Positions 9,800 to 21,397 of a stretch of DNA of 38,732 nt are shown piece after piece (position 1 is the stretch's first letter; each line of letters opens with the position of its first letter). Position numbers and translations under genes: made by a program. The notes beneath the pieces were generated by a model. It ran no database searches. It saw only the letters and a list, made by a program, of their open reading frames with translations, and was not told the origin of the DNA. The DNA lies in NCBI GenBank assembly GCA_030595715.1, contig JAUVCN010000012.1:1-38732 (forward strand), written 5' to 3'. The stretch comes from Thermoplasmatales archaeon. Its GTDB lineage: Archaea; Thermoplasmatota; Penumbrarchaeia; Penumbrarchaeales; Penumbrarchaeaceae.

Positions 9800-12079
9800 A
9801 TGAAAGGGTGGGTCCTCGATACCTACGCTGACCACGAAAGGGACCTCATGGACCTGTGGATCATCGATGGGTCCGGAAAACGGTCCATGATAGCACACAG
9901 GTTCCATCCCGAGATCAAGGTCGCAGGGAATAGAGAGGACCTCGTAAATCTGGATCGATATTTGAAGGATATGGACGGCCTGAAAGAAGTGGTCCGGGAG
10001 AATGGATACCTGGATGTCCAGGACAGGCATCCCAGGGACCATCTGCGCATCATCATCTCCAGGTATTCCATGATGATGGATATTGCAAAGGACATCGAGG
10101 CATTCGGCAACTACAGGGACTACTCTCTGTTCAATGTCGACCTTCGCCTCCCGACCAGATACCTCTACGAACACGGTATCTTCCCCCTGGCGAAGGTACA
10201 GGTCGCCAATGGATACAAACTTCTTGAAAATGGCGACTGGGGAACCAACCCTCTTCCTCCACTCAAGGCAAAGGTACTCCATGTCATACCGGAACAGAAA
10301 GGTCCGGTCCCGAGGATGACGGACCCCATCAGGTCCGTCAAGGTTGGAGACATGGAGCTTTCCGGCGAGAAGGAGGACCGGATGATCATGGCCGTGGTGG
10401 AGGAGCTGAAGAGGACCGACCCCGACCTTGTGCTAACGTATGGGGGCGACACGTTCGTCCTTCCATATCTATACGAAAGAGCGCTTGTCAACGACCTGGG
10501 GCCATACCTCAAGCTCGACAGGTCGGGAAGGCGATTCAGAGCACCTGTAAAGACCGGAAGGTCGTACTTCACATACGGACAGGTCAGATACAAGCCACCA
10601 TACTACCCACTGAAAGGGAGGATCCATATCGACCTGGAGAACTCCTTCCTTGTCAGGGAAGGAGGGCTCATCGGTGTTGCTCTCCTTTCAAGGATGTCTC
10701 TCCTTCCTCTTCAGGTCATGTCCAGGCTCTCACCTGGTTCGGCCATCTCCTACATGGAATGCGTGGAAGCACTCGGAAGAGGTCGGTCGATCAGATGGAA
10801 GAAGAATGATCCCGAAGGATGGAAGAGTGCGATCGAACTGTCCCGGTCCGATAGAGGGGGGCATATCTTCGATCCCATCGTCGGAGCCTACTCTGACGTT
10901 ATCGAGATGGACTTCTCATCCTTCTATCCACATATCATGTGGAAAAAGAACCTGTCGGTGGAGACACTGGGTTGTGACTGCTGTCCACCGGAAACAGACA
11001 ATACGGCACCCGGTCTCAATTATCACTACTGCAGGAAGGATATTGGACTTATCCCCCATGTTGTGGGCGATATACTTGCAAGGCGGATGGAATACAAGGC
11101 TGCATTCAAGAACAGGGTCCATCAGGGAGAGTTCCCTGAAGAGAGAGGGCTTGGACCCATCAGACCACCAACAGGCCCCGACAGGTTCTACCATGCATCC
11201 AACACACTGAAATGGGTACTGGTGACCTGCTTTGGATATACGGGATACAAGAACGCAAGGTTCGGCAGGATCGAGGTCCATGAATCGATCACAGCCTATG
11301 CGAGGGATATGCTTCTGAAAGCAAAGGAGCTGGTGGAAGAGAACGGTTTTCGGATCCTGCACGGGATCGTCGATTCCTTATGGTTGACAGGTCCGAGGAA
11401 CAGAGCAGAAGAAGTTGCGGAGCTGGTTGAAAAAGAGATGGGCATACCCATCGGGGTGGACACCGTCTACAAATGGCTGGTCTTCACACCGAACAAGACG
11501 AACGGTGTCGGGTCCCTGAACAGATACTATGGTCTGAGAAAGGATGGGACCTTCAAATACAGGGGGATAGCCTCAAGACAGAGGTCCACCCCGGTGTTCA
11601 TGAAGGGGGCTCTGACGGAAATGATAGAGTCCCTCTCGGGAGCAGAGAACGCCGATGAGATCCCCTACCACCTCCATCATGCGTTCGATGTTATGAGGGA
11701 TAAGGGAAGGATGATCATCGGCAGAGAGGTGGACCCGAAGGACCTTGCCATCACCATCAGGCCGTCGAAGGGACTGGATGAATACACGACAAGATCCGAA
11801 CATGTGGCAGCCATGCAGTTGTTAAGGAGGGAAGGGGAGAACATTCAGGGAGGGCAGAAGGTCCGGTTCGTTGTTCTCGACCACAATGCAGGCAGGCCGG
11901 AGAACAGGGTGGCCCTTCTGAAAGATGACATGGATGATGTAAATTACGATATCAATCGATATCTGGAACTCTCGGCAAGGTTCATGGGTCAGGCTCTTGC
12001 CGTGTTCGGTGTGACGGAGGAGGACGCCTTGAGAGCTTTGAAAGGAGTGGAACAGAAAGGGTTGGAAGATTTTCTATGA
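9800..12079 (+). CDS. Divergent family B DNA polymerase, exonuclease motifs lost, altered motif C
   Basis: The 759-residue protein is a full-length family B polymerase by layout. Motif A is intact ([10 protein letters not shown]371). The motif B region keeps its Lys (K471) and an [12 protein letters not shown] loop, but the usual Asn-Ser is replaced by VT-C. Motif C reads HGIVDS (521-526) instead of YxDTD(S/G): the catalytic second Asp (D525) is kept and the first is Ile. In the 3'-5' exonuclease domain, Exo II is recognisable (YGGDTF, D217). The Exo I D-x-E is replaced by HVIP near 161-164, and the Exo III Asp is absent. Proofreading is therefore unlikely, and polymerase activity is uncertain. 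Archaea are known to carry inactivated or divergent PolB derivatives, and this looks like one. It is unlikely to be the main replicase. The adjacent RecA-like pair may be functionally linked. Confidence 0.85.
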
Positions 12080-12152: not shown

Positions 12153-15100
12153 TTGAAAGGGAAAAGGATCGCATTCTCGACAATGTTGATATCGACCCTC
12201 ATCATTTTGACCGTTATACCTCCTGAAGCTCCTGGAGAGCTCATAAATAAGGATCTTCTGGAATTCCATGATACAATATGGATATATTACGATTCGAAGT
12301 TCACTTCTTCAGAGGGTGTTTCATCAGGAAACGGAACGGAAGCGAACCCTTACATCATCGAGAACCTGACCATCAATATCACCGGGAGTAAAAGTGCAAT
12401 TACAGTTTACAATACAGAATCTCATTTCATAATCAGGAACTGTTTGATCTTGAATCCTTTGAATACGTCAACAACCGGGATCTACTTTTCAAATGTAAAA
12501 AATGGGACCATTGAGTTCTCCGATCTCATCAATTCCAACATAGAGATAAGAGGATCCACAGATATCGAACTGAATGACCTGTTCATCAACAGGTCCCATA
12601 CAGGAATCAATATCCAGGACTCATCGAACATCACAATAACTGATTCGGTACTGGAATTCAATGAATACCGTGGATTAAAGGTGAAGGATTCGAAGGATGC
12701 GAGCATTCTAGGATCGGAGTTCGAAGGAGAGGAGAAGTGTATCGAGATCTCCGGGTCCACTGGGAAAGTGGAAGATTGTACTTTCCTGAGCGCAACAAGA
12801 GGAATTGAAGTGTCGAATTCAGGATCGTTCGATGTCAGGGGAAATATTCTGACTGACGTGTTATATGGGATCCGGTCAGATTACTCTGATCGGAAAAATA
12901 TCAGCATCACTGGCAACTCGATCAAGAACAGTAGAATCGGCATCTCTCTTTTCAATGGTGAGGCTCTGATCGAGAATAATACGATCACAGGCGATGAAGC
13001 TACCGGGATCACATCATACGGGGAAGGATCCTTCACCAGCATCGTAAGGAACAATACCATAACAATGCAGAGAGGATACGGTATCTTCGTAAACGGACCT
13101 ACGAAATATTACTCGAATACTCTGACCGGATGTGGTTTCGAAGTGGAGCCAGGTATCCTCGAGAACATCAGACCGATAATCCCGGAGAACAACACGGTCA
13201 ACGGGAGGCCGATCTTCTTCTGGAACGGAAGTGATGGGGATCTTCCCGGGTTCACGGAGATTCCCGGCCAGATCATCCTGGCCAACATGGTCGATACGGA
13301 GATCAGAGATCTCGATATGGGGAACGAATCTATGGGAATCCTGATCGGTGGGATCTCGGATAACGTATCGATAGAGAACTTCACAATTTCCGGGGCTCAA
13401 AGAGGCATCAGATTGTATGGAACGAACTCGAGAATTGGAAACAGTACCATATCGAACTGCGGATATGGCATTTATCATGAAGGATTCAATAATCGAATAT
13501 TCAACAATACGGTCACATCATGTAGTAACACGGGTCTCTATTCGACGATCGCAGGAGATCTATACAATCCGGGAAGGAACCGTATAGAACATAATGTTTT
13601 CAGTGAGAATACCGAAGGCATCTGTATCAGTCATAGTAATGAGTTGATATCCGGCAACACGATATCCATGAACCTTCAAACAGGAATATACATATCATCT
13701 GTAAGCAGTAACAACAATGAGATCACCGACAATCTGATCACCCATAATGGCGGAAACGGGATCACCCTCTCCCAGGCAAGGGGAAATCTTGTATCCCGCA
13801 ATACAATATGTGCAAACGGAGGATCGGGGATTGAAAATACTTACATTGCCTCGGGGAACATGTATCAGAACAACACGATCACAGATAACGACGAGTACGG
13901 GATCAGGGTAGAATATGGATACAATACCATAGAGTACTCGAATATCTCCGATAACGGACTCAGAGGGATCTACCTGGTAGGAAGGATCAACATGGTCCAT
14001 CACAATACCATCAGGGGAAATCCGGTCGGGTTGGATATCCTGAGCGACGAATTGAACTCGATATATAACAATTCGATATCGTGGAATTCAGTCGGGATCA
14101 GGACATACTGGTCGGAGGATATCGAGATTACCAGGAACATCATAGAGGACAATGATCTGGGATTATCCTTCAACCGTACCAACGATGCCCTGATCTTCGA
14201 CAACATCATCGACAATACGGAGAATGCTGAGATCCTCGAGTGGTGCGACAACCTCAACTTCCACACTGATAGAACTGTAGGAAGGAACATCGTCGGTGGA
14301 CCTTACATCGGTGGCAATTACTGGTCCGATTATTCAGGAAATGATACTGATTTCGATGGTCTTGGAGACACACTCACACCTCACTGGCCCGGAGATATCC
14401 ATCCACTTGTTCTGATCCCACCCCGGATCGGATGTGTCGATCTGTCCGATGAGGAAGCATTCACTGGATCCGATTTCGATCTTTTCTTTGCATTCAAGGA
14501 CCTGATCACAGAGAACCTTGTGTATGCGGACCTGGAGGTAGATCTATACAACATCAATGAAGAATTGATCCTGAAACAGAAGTATGATAGAGAATACCTT
14601 GGTGAAGACGATCATTTCAACACGAGCATTTCGATCCCCACAAGCTGTTCCAAACTGGAATATTCATTCACATTCGATGATGGTTATTTCGGGTTCTCTA
14701 CGATATCCCGAACACTGGATGTGATCGATACCATCCCCCCTACGATAGATTCCCTGGTTCTTGAACCGATCAATACGGGTGAAAGGATATCCATATTCAT
14801 GAATGTCCGGGATAATTACAGGGTATCGGACATCACATGCGATCTGAGATCGAACGGGAATGATGAGATACTGGAACATTCGCTTTTCAGGCCTCTGGAG
14901 AATTCGGAGACCACATGGGAAGGGAGCGTCCTGGTACCCTTTGATGCTGTCAATATATCCCTGAACATCACGATGGTGGACATCTCCGGCTTTATCCTCC
15001 ATCACAACATATCATGGATGGAAGTAAATGATACGATATCTCCAGTGATCAGAAATCTCTCATATTCGTTGAAAGATGATGAGAGAAGGATGGTAATCGC

Positions 15101-16280
15101 ATACGAGATCAGCGATAATATCGGGATCGAGGAAGGAGAAGTATCCATCCATTTCCATGAAACGGATTCCATTAGCAACTCCACCCTTATCAGACATAAC
15201 GATCTTATCTGGACCTGCGAGATAGATATCCCCCAAACATGTCACAGAATATCTCTATCCGCCATGGTTACGGATATGGCAGGGAATATCGCCGAACATG
15301 AAGAGACGATATATCCGGAGATCCTGTGGGAGAAGAATGTCGTTGACAATTCCGACATGGTCGCAGAAACAGGTAGATCCTTCCTCATAGATATCCAGGT
15401 CATTCCATGGATGGAAGATGGTGTTGCATTGTACTTCGATCTTGATGGATCCGACAGGAATATCATAGAGAACATAACGAGCTTCAGAATAGACCGGATA
15501 CCGGAGGATTCGAGGATTCTGGAATACGGCATCATCATCGGAAAGGGCCCCTGGTCATCTACCTGGTCATTCAACAGGACCGTTATTGACATGACTGAAC
15601 CAGTTGTGAATATCTTCTACTTGGATCCTGTAAACGGGAAGAAATGGGACCTGATGGTCAACATGGAGGATAATCGGGAGATTGAAAACTCTCTGATCAA
15701 CATTGATCTCGGGAACGGGTGGATATCTCTTATCGGAGATGGTGAGGGAACATATTCCATCGATATACCTTCAGATATCGTGTTCATCCGGTTGAACATC
15801 ACCGTTTCGGATGCATCCAGAAATGAGGTGACAATGGATGAATGGATAAATGTGATCGATCGAACGGATCCTGTCATCATCGATTCGGAATCGGGAACGG
15901 CGGAAGATTCCAAGATGAGAATGTTCGTTTGGGTCATTGTGGAGGATAACAGGGAGATCGACAGGGTGGTTGTCACATATGATCTGAATGGAGGAGAGAA
16001 GATAACAACGAACATGACAGAAAGATCCGAGAATTACTTCGAATTCCTCCTATCCAGAACGGATCAGACCGATGAGTTCAATTTCAAGGTGACCGCCCAC
16101 GACACATCCGGTAACGAGGTCGTATTGGAAGGCCGTATTGATGGAGAACGAAATGGAAAGGAAGAGAAAGGATTGAGATCAATATTTATCATCATCGGAT
16201 CCTGCATCATTGGAATCATCATTCTGTCCTTCATCGTGGTCAATCGAAGGAAGGTCGAGAAGGAGGATCGAGAAGAATGA
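12153..16280 (+). CDS. NosD-type right-handed beta-helix surface protein, membrane-anchored
   Basis: The 1375-residue protein has a signal peptide (about 1-29). A very long parallel beta-helix region follows (about 50-740), made of repeats such as IENNTI, ISGNTI and NIIDNT, typical of NosD/pectate-lyase-like folds. It closes with the GGNYWSDYSGNDTDFDGLGD signature near 713-735. Several Ig/cadherin-like modules occupy about 755-1325, marked by recurring DTIPPTI/DRTDPVI boundaries. One membrane helix (about 1341-1361) and a short charged tail end the protein. Many N-x-S/T sequons are present. The start is TTG at 12153, chosen because of GGAGTGA 5 bases upstream and the signal peptide. Beta-helix domains of this kind usually bind or cleave polysaccharide; no catalytic triad could be assigned, so a surface binding or structural role is as likely. 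Confidence 0.85.
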   Translation: MKGKRIAFSTMLISTLIILTVIPPEAPGELINKDLLEFHDTIWIYYDSKFTSSEGVSSGNGTEANPYIIENLTINITGSKSAITVYNTESHFIIRNCLILNPLNTSTTGIYFSNVKNGTIEFSDLINSNIEIRGSTDIELNDLFINRSHTGINIQDSSNITITDSVLEFNEYRGLKVKDSKDASILGSEFEGEEKCIEISGSTGKVEDCTFLSATRGIEVSNSGSFDVRGNILTDVLYGIRSDYSDRKNISITGNSIKNSRIGISLFNGEALIENNTITGDEATGITSYGEGSFTSIVRNNTITMQRGYGIFVNGPTKYYSNTLTGCGFEVEPGILENIRPIIPENNTVNGRPIFFWNGSDGDLPGFTEIPGQIILANMVDTEIRDLDMGNESMGILIGGISDNVSIENFTISGAQRGIRLYGTNSRIGNSTISNCGYGIYHEGFNNRIFNNTVTSCSNTGLYSTIAGDLYNPGRNRIEHNVFSENTEGICISHSNELISGNTISMNLQTGIYISSVSSNNNEITDNLITHNGGNGITLSQARGNLVSRNTICANGGSGIENTYIASGNMYQNNTITDNDEYGIRVEYGYNTIEYSNISDNGLRGIYLVGRINMVHHNTIRGNPVGLDILSDELNSIYNNSISWNSVGIRTYWSEDIEITRNIIEDNDLGLSFNRTNDALIFDNIIDNTENAEILEWCDNLNFHTDRTVGRNIVGGPYIGGNYWSDYSGNDTDFDGLGDTLTPHWPGDIHPLVLIPPRIGCVDLSDEEAFTGSDFDLFFAFKDLITENLVYADLEVDLYNINEELILKQKYDREYLGEDDHFNTSISIPTSCSKLEYSFTFDDGYFGFSTISRTLDVIDTIPPTIDSLVLEPINTGERISIFMNVRDNYRVSDITCDLRSNGNDEILEHSLFRPLENSETTWEGSVLVPFDAVNISLNITMVDISGFILHHNISWMEVNDTISPVIRNLSYSLKDDERRMVIAYEISDNIGIEEGEVSIHFHETDSISNSTLIRHNDLIWTCEIDIPQTCHRISLSAMVTDMAGNIAEHEETIYPEILWEKNVVDNSDMVAETGRSFLIDIQVIPWMEDGVALYFDLDGSDRNIIENITSFRIDRIPEDSRILEYGIIIGKGPWSSTWSFNRTVIDMTEPVVNIFYLDPVNGKKWDLMVNMEDNREIENSLINIDLGNGWISLIGDGEGTYSIDIPSDIVFIRLNITVSDASRNEVTMDEWINVIDRTDPVIIDSESGTAEDSKMRMFVWVIVEDNREIDRVVVTYDLNGGEKITTNMTERSENYFEFLLSRTDQTDEFNFKVTAHDTSGNEVVLEGRIDGERNGKEEKGLRSIFIIIGSCIIGIIILSFIVVNRRKVEKEDREE

Positions 16281-16342: not shown

Positions 16343-16831
16343 ATGAGGTCGCTTGTGGTTTACTATTCCCTCAAGGGAAAGACAAAGGGCGTTGCAGAAT
16401 ACATCGCCAAGGAACTAAAAGCCGATATGGAACGGATAGAACCTCTGCATCCAATAAATGGCGAGAAATTCATGTCGTTCTACGGTGACCGGGATGAGTT
16501 CGGAAATGATACGAGAACTGATATCTCACCTCCAAAGCACGATTGGAAGAAATATGACCTGATAGTTGTTGGAACCCCGATATGGGCCTGGGCACCGGCC
16601 CCCCCTGTCCATTTATATCTGAAAAGAGAGGGCATAAAGGGGAAGAAGGTTGCAATATTCTCCACATCCGATGGTGATTCCAGGGACGCGCTCACCAAGA
16701 TGAAGGGGCAATTCGCTGGCAACAGCGTTATCGCACAGAAGGAATTCATCTCGAGGGACGTTATTGAATACAAGATATCGAAGAAGAAAGCCGTCGCATG
16801 GGCAAGGAACCTTAAGAAGAGTCACCCATAG
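16343..16831 (+). CDS. Flavodoxin family protein 1
   Basis: The 162-residue protein is a flavodoxin-like FMN-binding domain. It has an N-terminal LVVYYSLKGKTKGVAEYIA strand-loop-helix for the FMN phosphate, the YDLIVVGTPIWAWAPAPP loop for the isoalloxazine ring, and the KVAIFSTSDGDS strand. It should act as a cytosolic one- or two-electron carrier. GAGGG lies 5 bases before the ATG. It forms a tandem pair with a paralogue that starts 10 bases after its stop. The electron donor or acceptor is not evident from the neighbours. Confidence 0.85.
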   Translation: MRSLVVYYSLKGKTKGVAEYIAKELKADMERIEPLHPINGEKFMSFYGDRDEFGNDTRTDISPPKHDWKKYDLIVVGTPIWAWAPAPPVHLYLKREGIKGKKVAIFSTSDGDSRDALTKMKGQFAGNSVIAQKEFISRDVIEYKISKKKAVAWARNLKKSHP

Positions 16832-16841
16832 GGATGATGTT

Positions 16842-17318
16842 ATGAAAAGCATCGTTGTTTTTTACTCATATGAGGGAAACACAAGACTGGTAGCCGAGAA
16901 CATAGCCAATTCGATCGGGGCCGATATTATCGAGATCAAACCCGAAAAGGAGATGAAGAGCAAGGGGGTCATGAAATTCCTTTGGGGAGGAAGGCAGGCC
17001 ATGATGGGTGTCAAACCTCCCCTAAGAGAGATCAAGAAGGACCTGAACAGCTATGATCTGATCTTCATAGGCACACCTGTATGGGCCTGGAGTCCAGCAC
17101 CTCCTATCAGAACCTTCCTGGAGGATCACCTTCCCAAGGGAAAGAGGATCGCCCTTTTCTCCTCCTGCGAGGGAGGGGGAGGAAAGACCTTCGAAAAGAT
17201 GACGGAAATGGCCAGGGGATGCCGGGTCATCGGAACGCTTGAATCACTTGCCCCTTTGAAACGAGAAAAGGAGAATACCCTCCAAAAGGCAAAAGTATGG
17301 GCAAAAGGTCTTATCTGA
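16842..17318 (+). CDS. Flavodoxin family protein 2 (tandem paralogue)
   Basis: The 158-residue protein repeats the layout of its upstream neighbour: IVVFYSYEGNTRLVAENIA for the FMN phosphate loop, YDLIFIGTPVWAWSPAPP for the ring loop, and RIALFSSCEGGGG. It differs in a WGGRQAMMGVKPPL insert in place of the acidic loop of the first copy. The start is the ATG at 16842 with GGGATGATG just upstream; an in-frame ATG at 16764 would add residues that do not fit the fold and would overlap the first gene. The two are surely in one operon and arose by duplication. Partners are unknown. Confidence 0.85.
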   Translation: MKSIVVFYSYEGNTRLVAENIANSIGADIIEIKPEKEMKSKGVMKFLWGGRQAMMGVKPPLREIKKDLNSYDLIFIGTPVWAWSPAPPIRTFLEDHLPKGKRIALFSSCEGGGGKTFEKMTEMARGCRVIGTLESLAPLKREKENTLQKAKVWAKGLI

Positions 17319-17347: not shown

Positions 17348-18553
17348 TCAAAAAGAGTCCTTCTTGATCTTTCTCAGTATTCCAAGCAATCTCTTCCTGG
17401 CAGGGAAATCACCGATCATCACGGTTGCAAGACCTCCTTTCACAAGTTCGCCGTTGATGTAGATCCGGTTCTTCAGAAATACAAGGTCACCTTCTATCCC
17501 TTCTGCTTCCTCGACCGAGATCTCCTTCCCGATCACGAACCTCTCAAGGTATTCCCTTGCTTTTGTATGGTCCGATATATCTATACCGGCAAGGGTGATC
17601 TCGCGGCGATCTTCAACCATCAACCCAAGGTTATCGGTTATTCCCCTTACCCTGATCAGGTCCCTTTTCTCAACCTCTCTTTCGGGTGGGTCCGCATTCC
17701 GGATAGCCGGAATGTATCCAGTATCATGTTCCGGCATCTCCTGGCCTTCCAATTCGAACGATCCGACATCGATGTTCCTTCCGAACCTTTTCTTCATTAT
17801 CGGAACAAAATCCCTGTTCAATTCGAAACCGACGCCCACCCTGCCATTCTCGTGAGCCGCCTGGATCGTGGTACCGCTTCCAAGGAACGGGTCCAGGACC
17901 TTCTCGTCTTTGAAGGTGAACATCCTTATCAAACGGGAAGGGAGTTCCACCGGGAACATTGCTTCATGGGACACCTGCCGGGCACCACCGAATGTCCAGT
18001 GACCGCTATGGAACCGTTTCCACTCCTCCTTGGTCATCCTGGACATCTCCTTGATGGCCTTGTCCCTTTTCGGCGATGGTCCCGGTTTCTTGAAGATCAG
18101 TATGAATTCATAATCGATCTCAACGATCCCGTTTGGAGGATATGGATACGAACCCATGATAACAGCCCCTCCGGAGGTGTTCATCGTGGTCCTCTTGTTC
18201 CAGATGATGGACCCCATAAAATCCATATCGAGTTGTTCCATCTGGGATATTATCTCGGAATGTAGAGGGATCACCTTGTATCGTCCGTAGATCGACGATC
18301 TGGCGAACTGGTCACCGATATTGATACATATCCTTCTACCTGGAGAAAGAGTGCGGACACACTCTTTCCACACGAGGAAAAGGTCCTTCAGATACGAATG
18401 GAGGTCCTGCCCATGACCTATCTGCTCCTTGCATCCATAATCCTTGATGTGCCAGTAAGGAGGAGAAGTGACCACAAGGTCCATCGAGGAATCTTCAATG
18501 ACCCCCAGGTCCCTTGAATCTCCAATGTAGACAGTATGCCTCCTTGGAATCAT
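17348..18553 (-). CDS. Orphan beta-class DNA methyltransferase fused to a C-terminal SNase-like domain
   Basis: Residues 1-260 are a site-specific DNA methyltransferase of the permuted beta class. The catalytic motif IV TSPPYW (29-34) comes first and the SAM-binding motif I, DPFLGSGTT (221-229), comes second. SPPY is most common in N4-cytosine enzymes, although some N6-adenine enzymes share it. Residues about 298-385 look like a staphylococcal-nuclease/Tudor-type OB fold (ITLAGIDISDH, then REYLERFVIGKEISV, then INGELVKGGLATV). The catalytic Arg and Glu of SNase are not conserved (Thr and Asp at those places), so it is probably a binding module. No restriction endonuclease is nearby. The gene sits 33 bases after the STAND gene on the same strand and is probably co-transcribed. 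The target site is unknown. Confidence 0.85.
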   Translation of the reverse strand: MIPRRHTVYIGDSRDLGVIEDSSMDLVVTSPPYWHIKDYGCKEQIGHGQDLHSYLKDLFLVWKECVRTLSPGRRICINIGDQFARSSIYGRYKVIPLHSEIISQMEQLDMDFMGSIIWNKRTTMNTSGGAVIMGSYPYPPNGIVEIDYEFILIFKKPGPSPKRDKAIKEMSRMTKEEWKRFHSGHWTFGGARQVSHEAMFPVELPSRLIRMFTFKDEKVLDPFLGSGTTIQAAHENGRVGVGFELNRDFVPIMKKRFGRNIDVGSFELEGQEMPEHDTGYIPAIRNADPPEREVEKRDLIRVRGITDNLGLMVEDRREITLAGIDISDHTKAREYLERFVIGKEISVEEAEGIEGDLVFLKNRIYINGELVKGGLATVMIGDFPARKRLLGILRKIKKDSF

Positions 18554-18586: not shown

Positions 18587-21397
18587 TTATCCATTCAGGG
18601 ATGAAAGCAGTTTCTCGGCCTTCTTTCTCCCCGTAGCGAACCCTCCCTCTTTTGAAAGGGATATCGCCTTCTTCAGCATCATCTTCTTCTTTCCGTTGTT
18701 AACATGTTTTTTCCTGGCCCATCTTATAAGGAGGACGACCTGTGGTTGAACGGCATCATACAGTTTGGAGGATGAAAGAGCAGCATCATATAGGATATCC
18801 ATCCATTCTGTCCCCATAGGTTTTATCATCGATCCTATCTCGAAAGTGTTGTCCAGGAACCTATCTCCTGACATATTTACCGAACACCAGTCCAGATATG
18901 ATCTGAGGTCCTGTTTTGCCTTGTTCCGGTCATCATCCAGGATCGATCTCATGGAATGAAGGAATAGATCGGCCGATCGTTCCTCGGCATTCATTTCGGC
19001 AGAAGCTCTCCGATAGAAGAATCCGGATCTCCTGTTCCGACCTTTCAGGAACCGGTTTATCATCTTCACACCGGTTGTTCTATCTTCCTTTCTTATCAAG
19101 ATCGAAAGGATCTTCCTCATGCTCTCTTCCAGTTTTCTGTAGTTTTCAATATCCTGATAACCTATGATGCATGTTTTTAGCTCTGTGATAGCCTCGATCT
19201 CATCCCCGGTCCGGATATGGAGATCAGCAAGATCATAGAGTGATTCAAGTTCGAGGGTCTTCGACCCTGAACCTATAGCTTCGATCCTGGCCTTTTCAAG
19301 ATAGTTCAGTGCCTTGTAACTCTTTCCAAGTGATCGATAGATGACCCCCATGTTCAGATGCACATGGGATAGGCCTCTCTGATCACTGGATGCCTTCAAT
19401 ATCCTTTCCGAATCCTTGAAGAATTTCAGGGCGGTCCTCATGTCTCCCCGTTCCAGATATGCCACGCCAAGATTGTTGAGGGCTTTTGCCTCTCCCATCT
19501 GATCGTTCGCATTCCTGAGGATGGCCAAACTCTCCTTGTATCTCTTGATAGCACTTTCAGAGACACCTTCCAGTCTCGCCAATTCACCGAACCTGTTCAG
19601 GATCCTTGCCAATGCCAGGTTCCAATCCTCATCTCCGCCCTTTGTGATCTCGATGTCACAGATCGATCTGGCCTTTTCAAGCATCTCCTTTGCATCTACA
19701 AGGTCATCCTTCAGAACCGATGATTCGAAGCCGATAAGATACTTGGTCACCCTATCGATCTGTTTCAGGTCCCTATCATCTATCAGCTGTGCGATATCCC
19801 ACACCTGCTGGTACCCCTTGCATGCCAGATATTCACCGTATTTCAGAACGTAGGTCCTTACTTTTTTCTCCTTTCCAGCCAGGTTGGCAAAATGGATGGT
19901 CTCCACGATATCAGGATCAGAACCCCTGGTGGAGAAATGATCGAAGGCTTTGGCAGACAGGATCCTGGTCTCGCTGGAGGTTACCTTGTTCATCACGGAT
20001 TCCTTCAATAATTCATGAAGGAAGCATGTCCCATTCGGGTATTCCACAAGAAGCATCCGATCGATCAAGTGCTTGACCATCCTTTCATTGACCCCCTCAA
20101 GTTGAAGGAAGGCCTTCGGATAGACCGGTGATCTGAAAAGGGATGCAAGTTTCACGATACTCCACTCTCTCTCGTTCAACTGCGAGACCATCTCCTCCTG
20201 AATGAACCGGTCCAATGAGAACCTGGCATCATTCCAATCAACGGATCCAGTCAACATATAAAGCTGAAGGGCAAGGGGGTTTCCGCAGGTCACCTCCTTG
20301 ATCAGATCGATATCATCTAGCGGTTGGTTCCTGGAGGTGAGCATCTCTCCGATCTCGGGCCTGTTCAGACCCTGGAGTTCCAGTTCGAACAGACCTCTTC
20401 TCATTGATACCTCGGTCCTTGTGTATATCGGAGGTCTGACCCTGCTGGTCACGATCACCCTCACTTTCCTGTCACCTTCAATGATCGCTTCCTTGAAAGC
20501 CTTGAAAAGGTCCATAAGATCATTGGGTGCCTTGTGAAGGTCCTCGATAACCAGTATAACCTCCGTGGTGGAAAGGTCATTTATGGCTGCCCGAACAGCA
20601 TCGTAAAGGTCAAGCCTTCCTTCCGAGGTCATATAGGAGAACAAGGACTCTCCGCCCATGGACCGCAATCCCAATGATATCTCGTTCAGGAAATTGTTTG
20701 GTCCCATATATGTGTTGCATGAGGTCCAGATCACATTCTTCTCATTTTTCTTCTCGATGAACTTTGATACGAGCGATGTCTTTCCCTGCCCTGCAATGGA
20801 GATAACGGATATGATCCTGTTATCCTGATCGTGAATGTTATCTTCAAGCAGTTTCAGCTCTTTCGATCTCCCGAAGAATTCCTTGATCCGTGGGATCGTC
20901 TTTTCCAATCTGGCCCGATGTAGATCTGCTCCTCCGATCAATGTAAGGTCGATCTCGTTCTTGGAGATCATGTCCGAGACCAGTTCGAACATCTCAACCT
21001 TCCTTTTGAGTATTTTTGACACTGTTCTGAGGGACTTCTTGAGATCCCACTCCTCGATGGAACCTTCGTTCGTTCTTACTGTCAGATATTTGTTCTCAAG
21101 TTCCCTTATGAGTCGATCCGTATGATCGAGACCGTTATGATCAAGGAAATACACCCGTCTCTTCCGATCAAGTCCTGTCACATGAGAGGAGCGGTGGGAA
21201 AGATACCCCTTACTTTCCAGGTCAGTTATGGCTCTTGATACATGGTTCTGCCTTGAAACGAGTTCCTTGGCCATACCTCCCTGTGATAGGATCTCTGGCA
21301 CCGTATATTCTTCCCTGTAGCGATCGTATTGGCTCAGAAGAAGCAATATCCTGTTCTCGAGTGTTATCCTCTTCAGGTAGACTCTCCTTCTCTTCAT
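18587..21397 (-). CDS. HTH-STAND ATPase-TPR regulator
   Basis: The 936-residue protein begins with a winged-helix domain (about 10-100, with a KELVSRQNHVSRAITDLESKGYL recognition region). A STAND/AAA-like NTPase follows: FFGRSKELKLLE (about 174-185), Walker A IAGQGKTS (201-208), Walker B VILVIEDLHKA (280-290) and a sensor strand VRVIVTSRVRP. A second winged-helix/linker region precedes TPR-like repeats (about 620-770, for example ALNNLGVAYLERGDMRTALKFF). Such proteins are multimeric signal switches; with an N-terminal HTH they usually act as transcription regulators in archaea. No toxic effector domain is seen, which argues against an Avs-type defence protein. It precedes the methyltransferase gene and shares a divergent promoter region with an Ig/PKD surface-protein gene. 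The signal is unknown. Confidence 0.85.
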   Translation of the reverse strand: MKRRRVYLKRITLENRILLLLSQYDRYREEYTVPEILSQGGMAKELVSRQNHVSRAITDLESKGYLSHRSSHVTGLDRKRRVYFLDHNGLDHTDRLIRELENKYLTVRTNEGSIEEWDLKKSLRTVSKILKRKVEMFELVSDMISKNEIDLTLIGGADLHRARLEKTIPRIKEFFGRSKELKLLEDNIHDQDNRIISVISIAGQGKTSLVSKFIEKKNEKNVIWTSCNTYMGPNNFLNEISLGLRSMGGESLFSYMTSEGRLDLYDAVRAAINDLSTTEVILVIEDLHKAPNDLMDLFKAFKEAIIEGDRKVRVIVTSRVRPPIYTRTEVSMRRGLFELELQGLNRPEIGEMLTSRNQPLDDIDLIKEVTCGNPLALQLYMLTGSVDWNDARFSLDRFIQEEMVSQLNEREWSIVKLASLFRSPVYPKAFLQLEGVNERMVKHLIDRMLLVEYPNGTCFLHELLKESVMNKVTSSETRILSAKAFDHFSTRGSDPDIVETIHFANLAGKEKKVRTYVLKYGEYLACKGYQQVWDIAQLIDDRDLKQIDRVTKYLIGFESSVLKDDLVDAKEMLEKARSICDIEITKGGDEDWNLALARILNRFGELARLEGVSESAIKRYKESLAILRNANDQMGEAKALNNLGVAYLERGDMRTALKFFKDSERILKASSDQRGLSHVHLNMGVIYRSLGKSYKALNYLEKARIEAIGSGSKTLELESLYDLADLHIRTGDEIEAITELKTCIIGYQDIENYRKLEESMRKILSILIRKEDRTTGVKMINRFLKGRNRRSGFFYRRASAEMNAEERSADLFLHSMRSILDDDRNKAKQDLRSYLDWCSVNMSGDRFLDNTFEIGSMIKPMGTEWMDILYDAALSSSKLYDAVQPQVVLLIRWARKKHVNNGKKKMMLKKAISLSKEGGFATGRKKAEKLLSSLNG

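Follow-up and report, generated by a model that had tools for sequence, protein, structure and literature searches.

A predicted orphan CTAG methyltransferase of a Thermoplasmatales archaeon carries a degenerate staphylococcal-nuclease tail that may hold DNA

We analysed a window of 38,732 nucleotides from a Thermoplasmatales archaeon, in which a complete gene on the minus strand (17348..18553) encodes a protein of 401 residues composed of a DNA methyltransferase and a C-terminal domain resembling staphylococcal nuclease (SNase). We consider it probable that this protein is an orphan member of a Type II beta-class methyltransferase family that is often paired with an MjaI-family restriction endonuclease, that it forms N4-methylcytosine (m4C) in the sequence CTAG, and that its catalytically dead SNase tail serves as a DNA-holding module. 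The coordinates of the gene agree with those of an initial annotation made from the sequence alone, which did not give its strand. The features of the protein are collected in Table 1.

Table 1. Features of the methyltransferase and its tail, with positions in the window
Feature	Residues	Position	Strand	Evidence or remark
Methyltransferase domain	25-255	17789..18481	-	Pfam N6_N4_Mtase 8.6e-40; PDB 2zie 7.3e-55; Foldseek 1.7e-24
Motif IV, TSPPYW, catalytic (S/D)PPY motif	29-34	18452..18469	-	invariant or near-invariant in 36 homologues
Region between motifs VIII and X, candidate target-recognition region	122-197	17963..18190	-	pLDDT; position by family knowledge
Motif I, DPFLGSGTT, AdoMet-binding	221-229	17867..17893	-	almost invariant in 36 homologues
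SNase-like OB-fold domain, catalytic residues lost	300-395	17369..17656	-	AF2 pLDDT, Foldseek, Pfam SNase in tails of relatives
Thr320, place of SNase catalytic Arg35	320	17594..17596	-	family column against intact SNase L143; family column K/S/R/G
Asp328, place of SNase catalytic Glu43	328	17570..17572	-	alignment to L143; family column K/R/D/N
N-R-I-Y-I-N	362-367	17453..17470	-	both Asn invariant in 73/73 aligned tails

The methyltransferase and its family

The initial annotation had recognised a DNA methyltransferase, and the match of the N-terminal domain to Pfam N6_N4_Mtase, at 137.5 bits above the cut-off of 26.7, bears this out. Motif IV precedes motif I, which places the enzyme in the beta class, and the S-P-P-Y form of motif IV is typical for N4-cytosine enzymes. 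Based on these motifs, the protein is predicted to be an N6_N4-type, beta-class methyltransferase that methylates DNA. The candidate target-recognition region lies in the span between motif VIII and motif X, which we take to be the usual site of target recognition in beta-class enzymes, and contains two loops of low model confidence (pLDDT; residues 122-136 and 190-197). The best match in both sequence and structure is TTHA0409 of Thermus (PDB 2zie/2zif/2zig), which shares the methyltransferase fold but stops before the tail and is without the last 130 residues of the window protein. Intact homologues are 53-58% identical to the window protein across almost its full length.

The methyltransferase start is preceded, at a distance of 33 bases, by the gene of a 936-residue protein with an HTH, an AAA/STAND-like ATPase and TPR repeats (18587-21397, minus strand), and the two genes possibly form one transcript. 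A joint operon function was considered and rejected, since this neighbourhood is not kept in relatives. Other neighbours, all on the plus strand, are a divergent family-B DNA polymerase of 759 residues (9800-12079; Pfam DNA_pol_B 2e-21), a secreted-looking protein of 1375 residues with NosD/right-handed beta-helix repeats (12153-16280), and two flavodoxin genes in tandem (16343-17318; Flavodoxin_4, 4e-12 and 2e-13). DNA polymerase and flavodoxins likewise stand near the methyltransferase in another genome of the same family (L115).

Is the fusion of a methyltransferase with an SNase-like tail an unusual arrangement, as the initial annotation had supposed? Our homologue set comprised the best 80 loci from a scan of 84,980 genomes, and among these the tail is present in 72 of the 72 genes longer than 380 residues; the eight remaining loci are shorter open frames at contig ends or with broken frames. 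With 72 complete homologues carrying the tail, a chance fusion or an assembly artefact is rejected. The 80 loci are distributed over Thermoplasmatota, Thermotogota, Aquificota, Bacteroidota, Chloroflexi, Spirochaetes, Nitrospirae, Deltaproteobacteria, Armatimonadetes and others. Moreover, the full-length tailed family has been catalogued before: the PADLOC model PDLC03259 (Type II methyltransferase, 423 positions) matches the window protein at 1.4e-106, and the C-terminal part of the model hits each of the 46 scanned tails (best 1.5e-62), the window's own tail weakly (0.0032). The arrangement is therefore common and not new. However, PDLC03259 carries no SNase label, a literature search for an SNase-methyltransferase fusion found none, and the reuse of the nuclease fold in this methyltransferase family seems undiscussed in the literature searched. 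Among the matches listed, the closest tail-less relative near the tailed clade is a protein of 313 residues (L012).

We also considered spread by phage or plasmid. In the methyltransferase comparison list of the phage search only one record covers 80% of the query, at 24% identity, and none of the best 80 IMG/VR loci showed the tail, on which grounds this route was rejected; one plasmid record covers at least 80% of the query.

Fold and lost active site of the tail

The initial annotation had read an SNase-type OB-fold in the C-terminal 100 or so residues from two strings, LAGIDISDH and INGELVKGGLATV, which are both present (residues 321-329 and 366-378). The structure prediction is in line with this reading: the AlphaFold (AF2) model of the tail has a pLDDT of 92.4, and its best 50 Foldseek matches in the PDB are, without exception, chains of staphylococcal nuclease or SND1 (E 2e-4 to 3e-3, TM about 0.6); no unrelated fold was matched with confidence. 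The window's own tail stays under the Pfam threshold for SNase (PF00565; 12.3 bits, cut-off 21). Yet 40 of 46 homologous tails match this profile with E-values of 1 or below (best 2.1e-7), and a PF00565 search of related genomes found five relatives, two of them from the same taxonomic family, whose tails exceed the cut-off. Conversely, a profile built from the tails recovers a stand-alone archaeal SNase (L143; 3.7e-12) with intact DGDT, VRLIGINAPE and YNR motifs. Taken together, these three observations argue that the SNase likeness goes beyond chance, and the tail is best modelled as a degenerate staphylococcal-nuclease OB-fold. It shares its fold with staphylococcal nuclease and with the SN repeats of SND1/Tudor-SN (PF00565), but differs in that the catalytic Arg and Glu positions are unconserved and that it is part of a methyltransferase. 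The Foldseek matches, which are SNase and SND1 chains with SN repeats, did not point specifically to a Tudor domain; the suggestion of a Tudor-type reader of a modified protein thus found no specific evidence.

Can the tail still cut? The catalytic positions were assigned by hand, aligning the tails by eye to the VRLIGINAPE stretch of the archaeal SNase L143. This alignment confirms the replacement of the catalytic Arg by Thr and of the catalytic Glu by Asp that had been proposed for the window protein, in which the loop bearing Arg87 is deleted as well. At the place of Asp21 the window protein has L309 nearby and the family column is mixed, and the place of the calcium ligand Asp40 is taken by D325 in the window protein and by K/R/E/V elsewhere in the family. 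Across 73 tails, none of Asp21, Arg35, Glu43 and Arg87 is conserved as a family column, while G323 is kept in 72 of 73. Judged by these alignments, the loss of the active site appears to be family-wide, and the window tail is very probably unable to cut. Although the SNase fold as such would fit an active nuclease, and with it a self-contained restriction-modification enzyme, we regard this reading as extremely improbable: the catalytic columns are lost, the window protein is without Arg35, Glu43 and Arg87, and relatives encode a separate endonuclease.

Partner endonuclease, orphan state and predicted target

Downstream of the methyltransferase, 48 of the best 80 loci encode an MjaI-family restriction endonuclease (RE_MjaI, PF09568, up to 1e-68), which lies within 170 bases in 43 of those 48, often with overlapping genes. 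No other conserved neighbour was found among the 80 loci. The endonucleases beside these methyltransferases fall into two subfamilies, about 25% identical to one another, and each adjoins tailed as well as tail-less methyltransferases, so that all four combinations exist; the tail-less pairings are L125 with subfamily 1, and L121, L122 and plasmid pFZ1 with subfamily 2. The tail-less methyltransferase of L125 and the tailed one of L046 adjoin the same endonuclease subfamily, which looks like a natural exchange of the modification enzyme.

A profile search for RE_MjaI, in which M. jannaschii matched as control, found no such endonuclease in the window's own genome, whose assembly is about 96% complete and could therefore miss one, nor in the seven further genomes of the same family. 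As far as these genomes tell, the window methyltransferase would be an orphan with respect to the MjaI-family endonuclease and not part of a complete restriction-modification system. Five of the seven other genomes carry a complete tailed methyltransferase. In a tree (branch support not shown) the window's clade is nested among endonuclease-paired members, which suggests that this clade lost its endonuclease. Further orphans exist, some with endonuclease fragments left. At one locus, L127 of genome G109, the MjaI-type endonuclease is interrupted by four internal stops while the tailed methyltransferase is intact, so that an orphan seems to be emerging there. Orphan CTAG m4C methyltransferases are known in Halobacteria (PMC10609329).

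Which sequence might the enzyme methylate? M.MthZI has been reported as an m4C CTAG methyltransferase, of which M.MjaI is a homologue (PMC5867850). The methyltransferase gene of pFZ1, which we equated with M.MthZI on the basis of plasmid, size and neighbour, adjoins an MjaI-family endonuclease, and this endonuclease is 48-57% identical to the subfamily-2 endonucleases beside tailed methyltransferases. The window methyltransferase is itself related to those paired with RE_MjaI. Methyltransferase and endonuclease of one pair must share a recognition sequence; since the endonuclease subfamilies swap between tailed and tail-less methyltransferases, one common target for all pairs is the simplest reading. 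Based on this swapping and on the homology of the endonucleases to R.MthZI, the target of the window enzyme is likely CTAG, and its product is most likely m4C, given the S-P-P-Y form of motif IV and the above report on M.MthZI. Within the 38,732-nt window no other 4-base palindrome is as depleted as CTAG (11 observed, 32.6 expected, O/E 0.34), which lends weak support, since CTAG is rare in many prokaryotes.

Enzymes of the M.MthZI (pFZ1)/M.MjaI type have the beta class and the SPPY motif in common with the window protein, to which they are about 32% identical, but they have an MjaI-family endonuclease as partner where the window member has none, and they lack the SNase-like tail. Instead, the alignment shows that the MthZI-type enzymes have additional segments behind motif IV and ahead of motif X, which are missing in tailed enzymes. 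As these tail-less enzymes apparently recognise the same site, the tail should be unnecessary for CTAG recognition in general.

Role of the tail

Across the family the tail is strongly basic: its pI has a median of 9.5 and exceeds 8.5 in 99% of members. Such a pI is in itself no proof of DNA binding, however, and the tail of the window protein, with a net charge of +2, is less basic than the family median (+6). At the same time it varies much faster than the methyltransferase domain: relatives are 24-45% identical to the window protein in the tail and 65-69% in the methyltransferase domain. Tail divergence is equal in orphan and endonuclease-paired members at equal divergence of the methyltransferase (at 60-65% methyltransferase identity, tail identity is 0.321 for endonuclease-paired pairs and 0.327 for orphan pairs), and the constraint on the tail is thus independent of the endonuclease.

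This independence bears on the idea that the MjaI-type endonuclease docks on the tail or is regulated by it. Such a role would fit the downstream, often overlapping endonuclease gene of so many relatives, but we consider it highly improbable, since orphan lineages conserve the tail to the same degree and the same endonuclease subfamilies also partner tail-less methyltransferases.

A role for the tail most likely lies in holding DNA. In this reading, which we consider the most likely, the orphan enzyme would transfer a methyl group to N4 of the cytosine in CTAG, and the basic tail, without the ability to cut, would hold or position the DNA for the methyltransferase and take over part of the work done by the extra insertions of the tail-less MthZI-type relatives. 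The absence of these insertions from tailed enzymes could also mean that the tail reads target bases as a true part of sequence recognition, its SNase ancestry being incidental to that role; this appears unlikely, given that the tail varies far faster than the methyltransferase domain though the target seems constant.

The main rival is a protein-protein module that makes no contact with DNA and mediates dimerisation of the methyltransferase or binding of another cell protein, in the manner of the SN repeats of SND1. These repeats are among the best structural matches of the tail and provide surfaces for interaction, as in the MTDH-SND1 complex 4qmg, and related enzymes paired with the same endonucleases do without a tail. 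We give this possibility some weight but still find it doubtful in view of the basic character of the tail throughout the family, of RE_MjaI as the sole conserved neighbour gene, and of a tail constraint that does not depend on this endonuclease. A DNA-holding module remains the most economical reading.

The dead SNase tail might instead act as a sensor, such that the orphan marks CTAG only in a particular context, e.g. in single-stranded, RNA-paired or protein-bound DNA. We think this very unlikely; if true, this archaeal lineage would use CTAG methylation as a regulated epigenetic signal.

In summary, a widely distributed family of Type II methyltransferases appears to have adopted a nuclease fold as an accessory domain. 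Two groups of methyltransferases, one with a tail and one with insertions, probably act on the same CTAG site beside interchangeable endonucleases and thus offer a clean comparison. The orphan lineage described here is a candidate case, outside Halobacteria, of m4C methylation at CTAG with a regulatory role.
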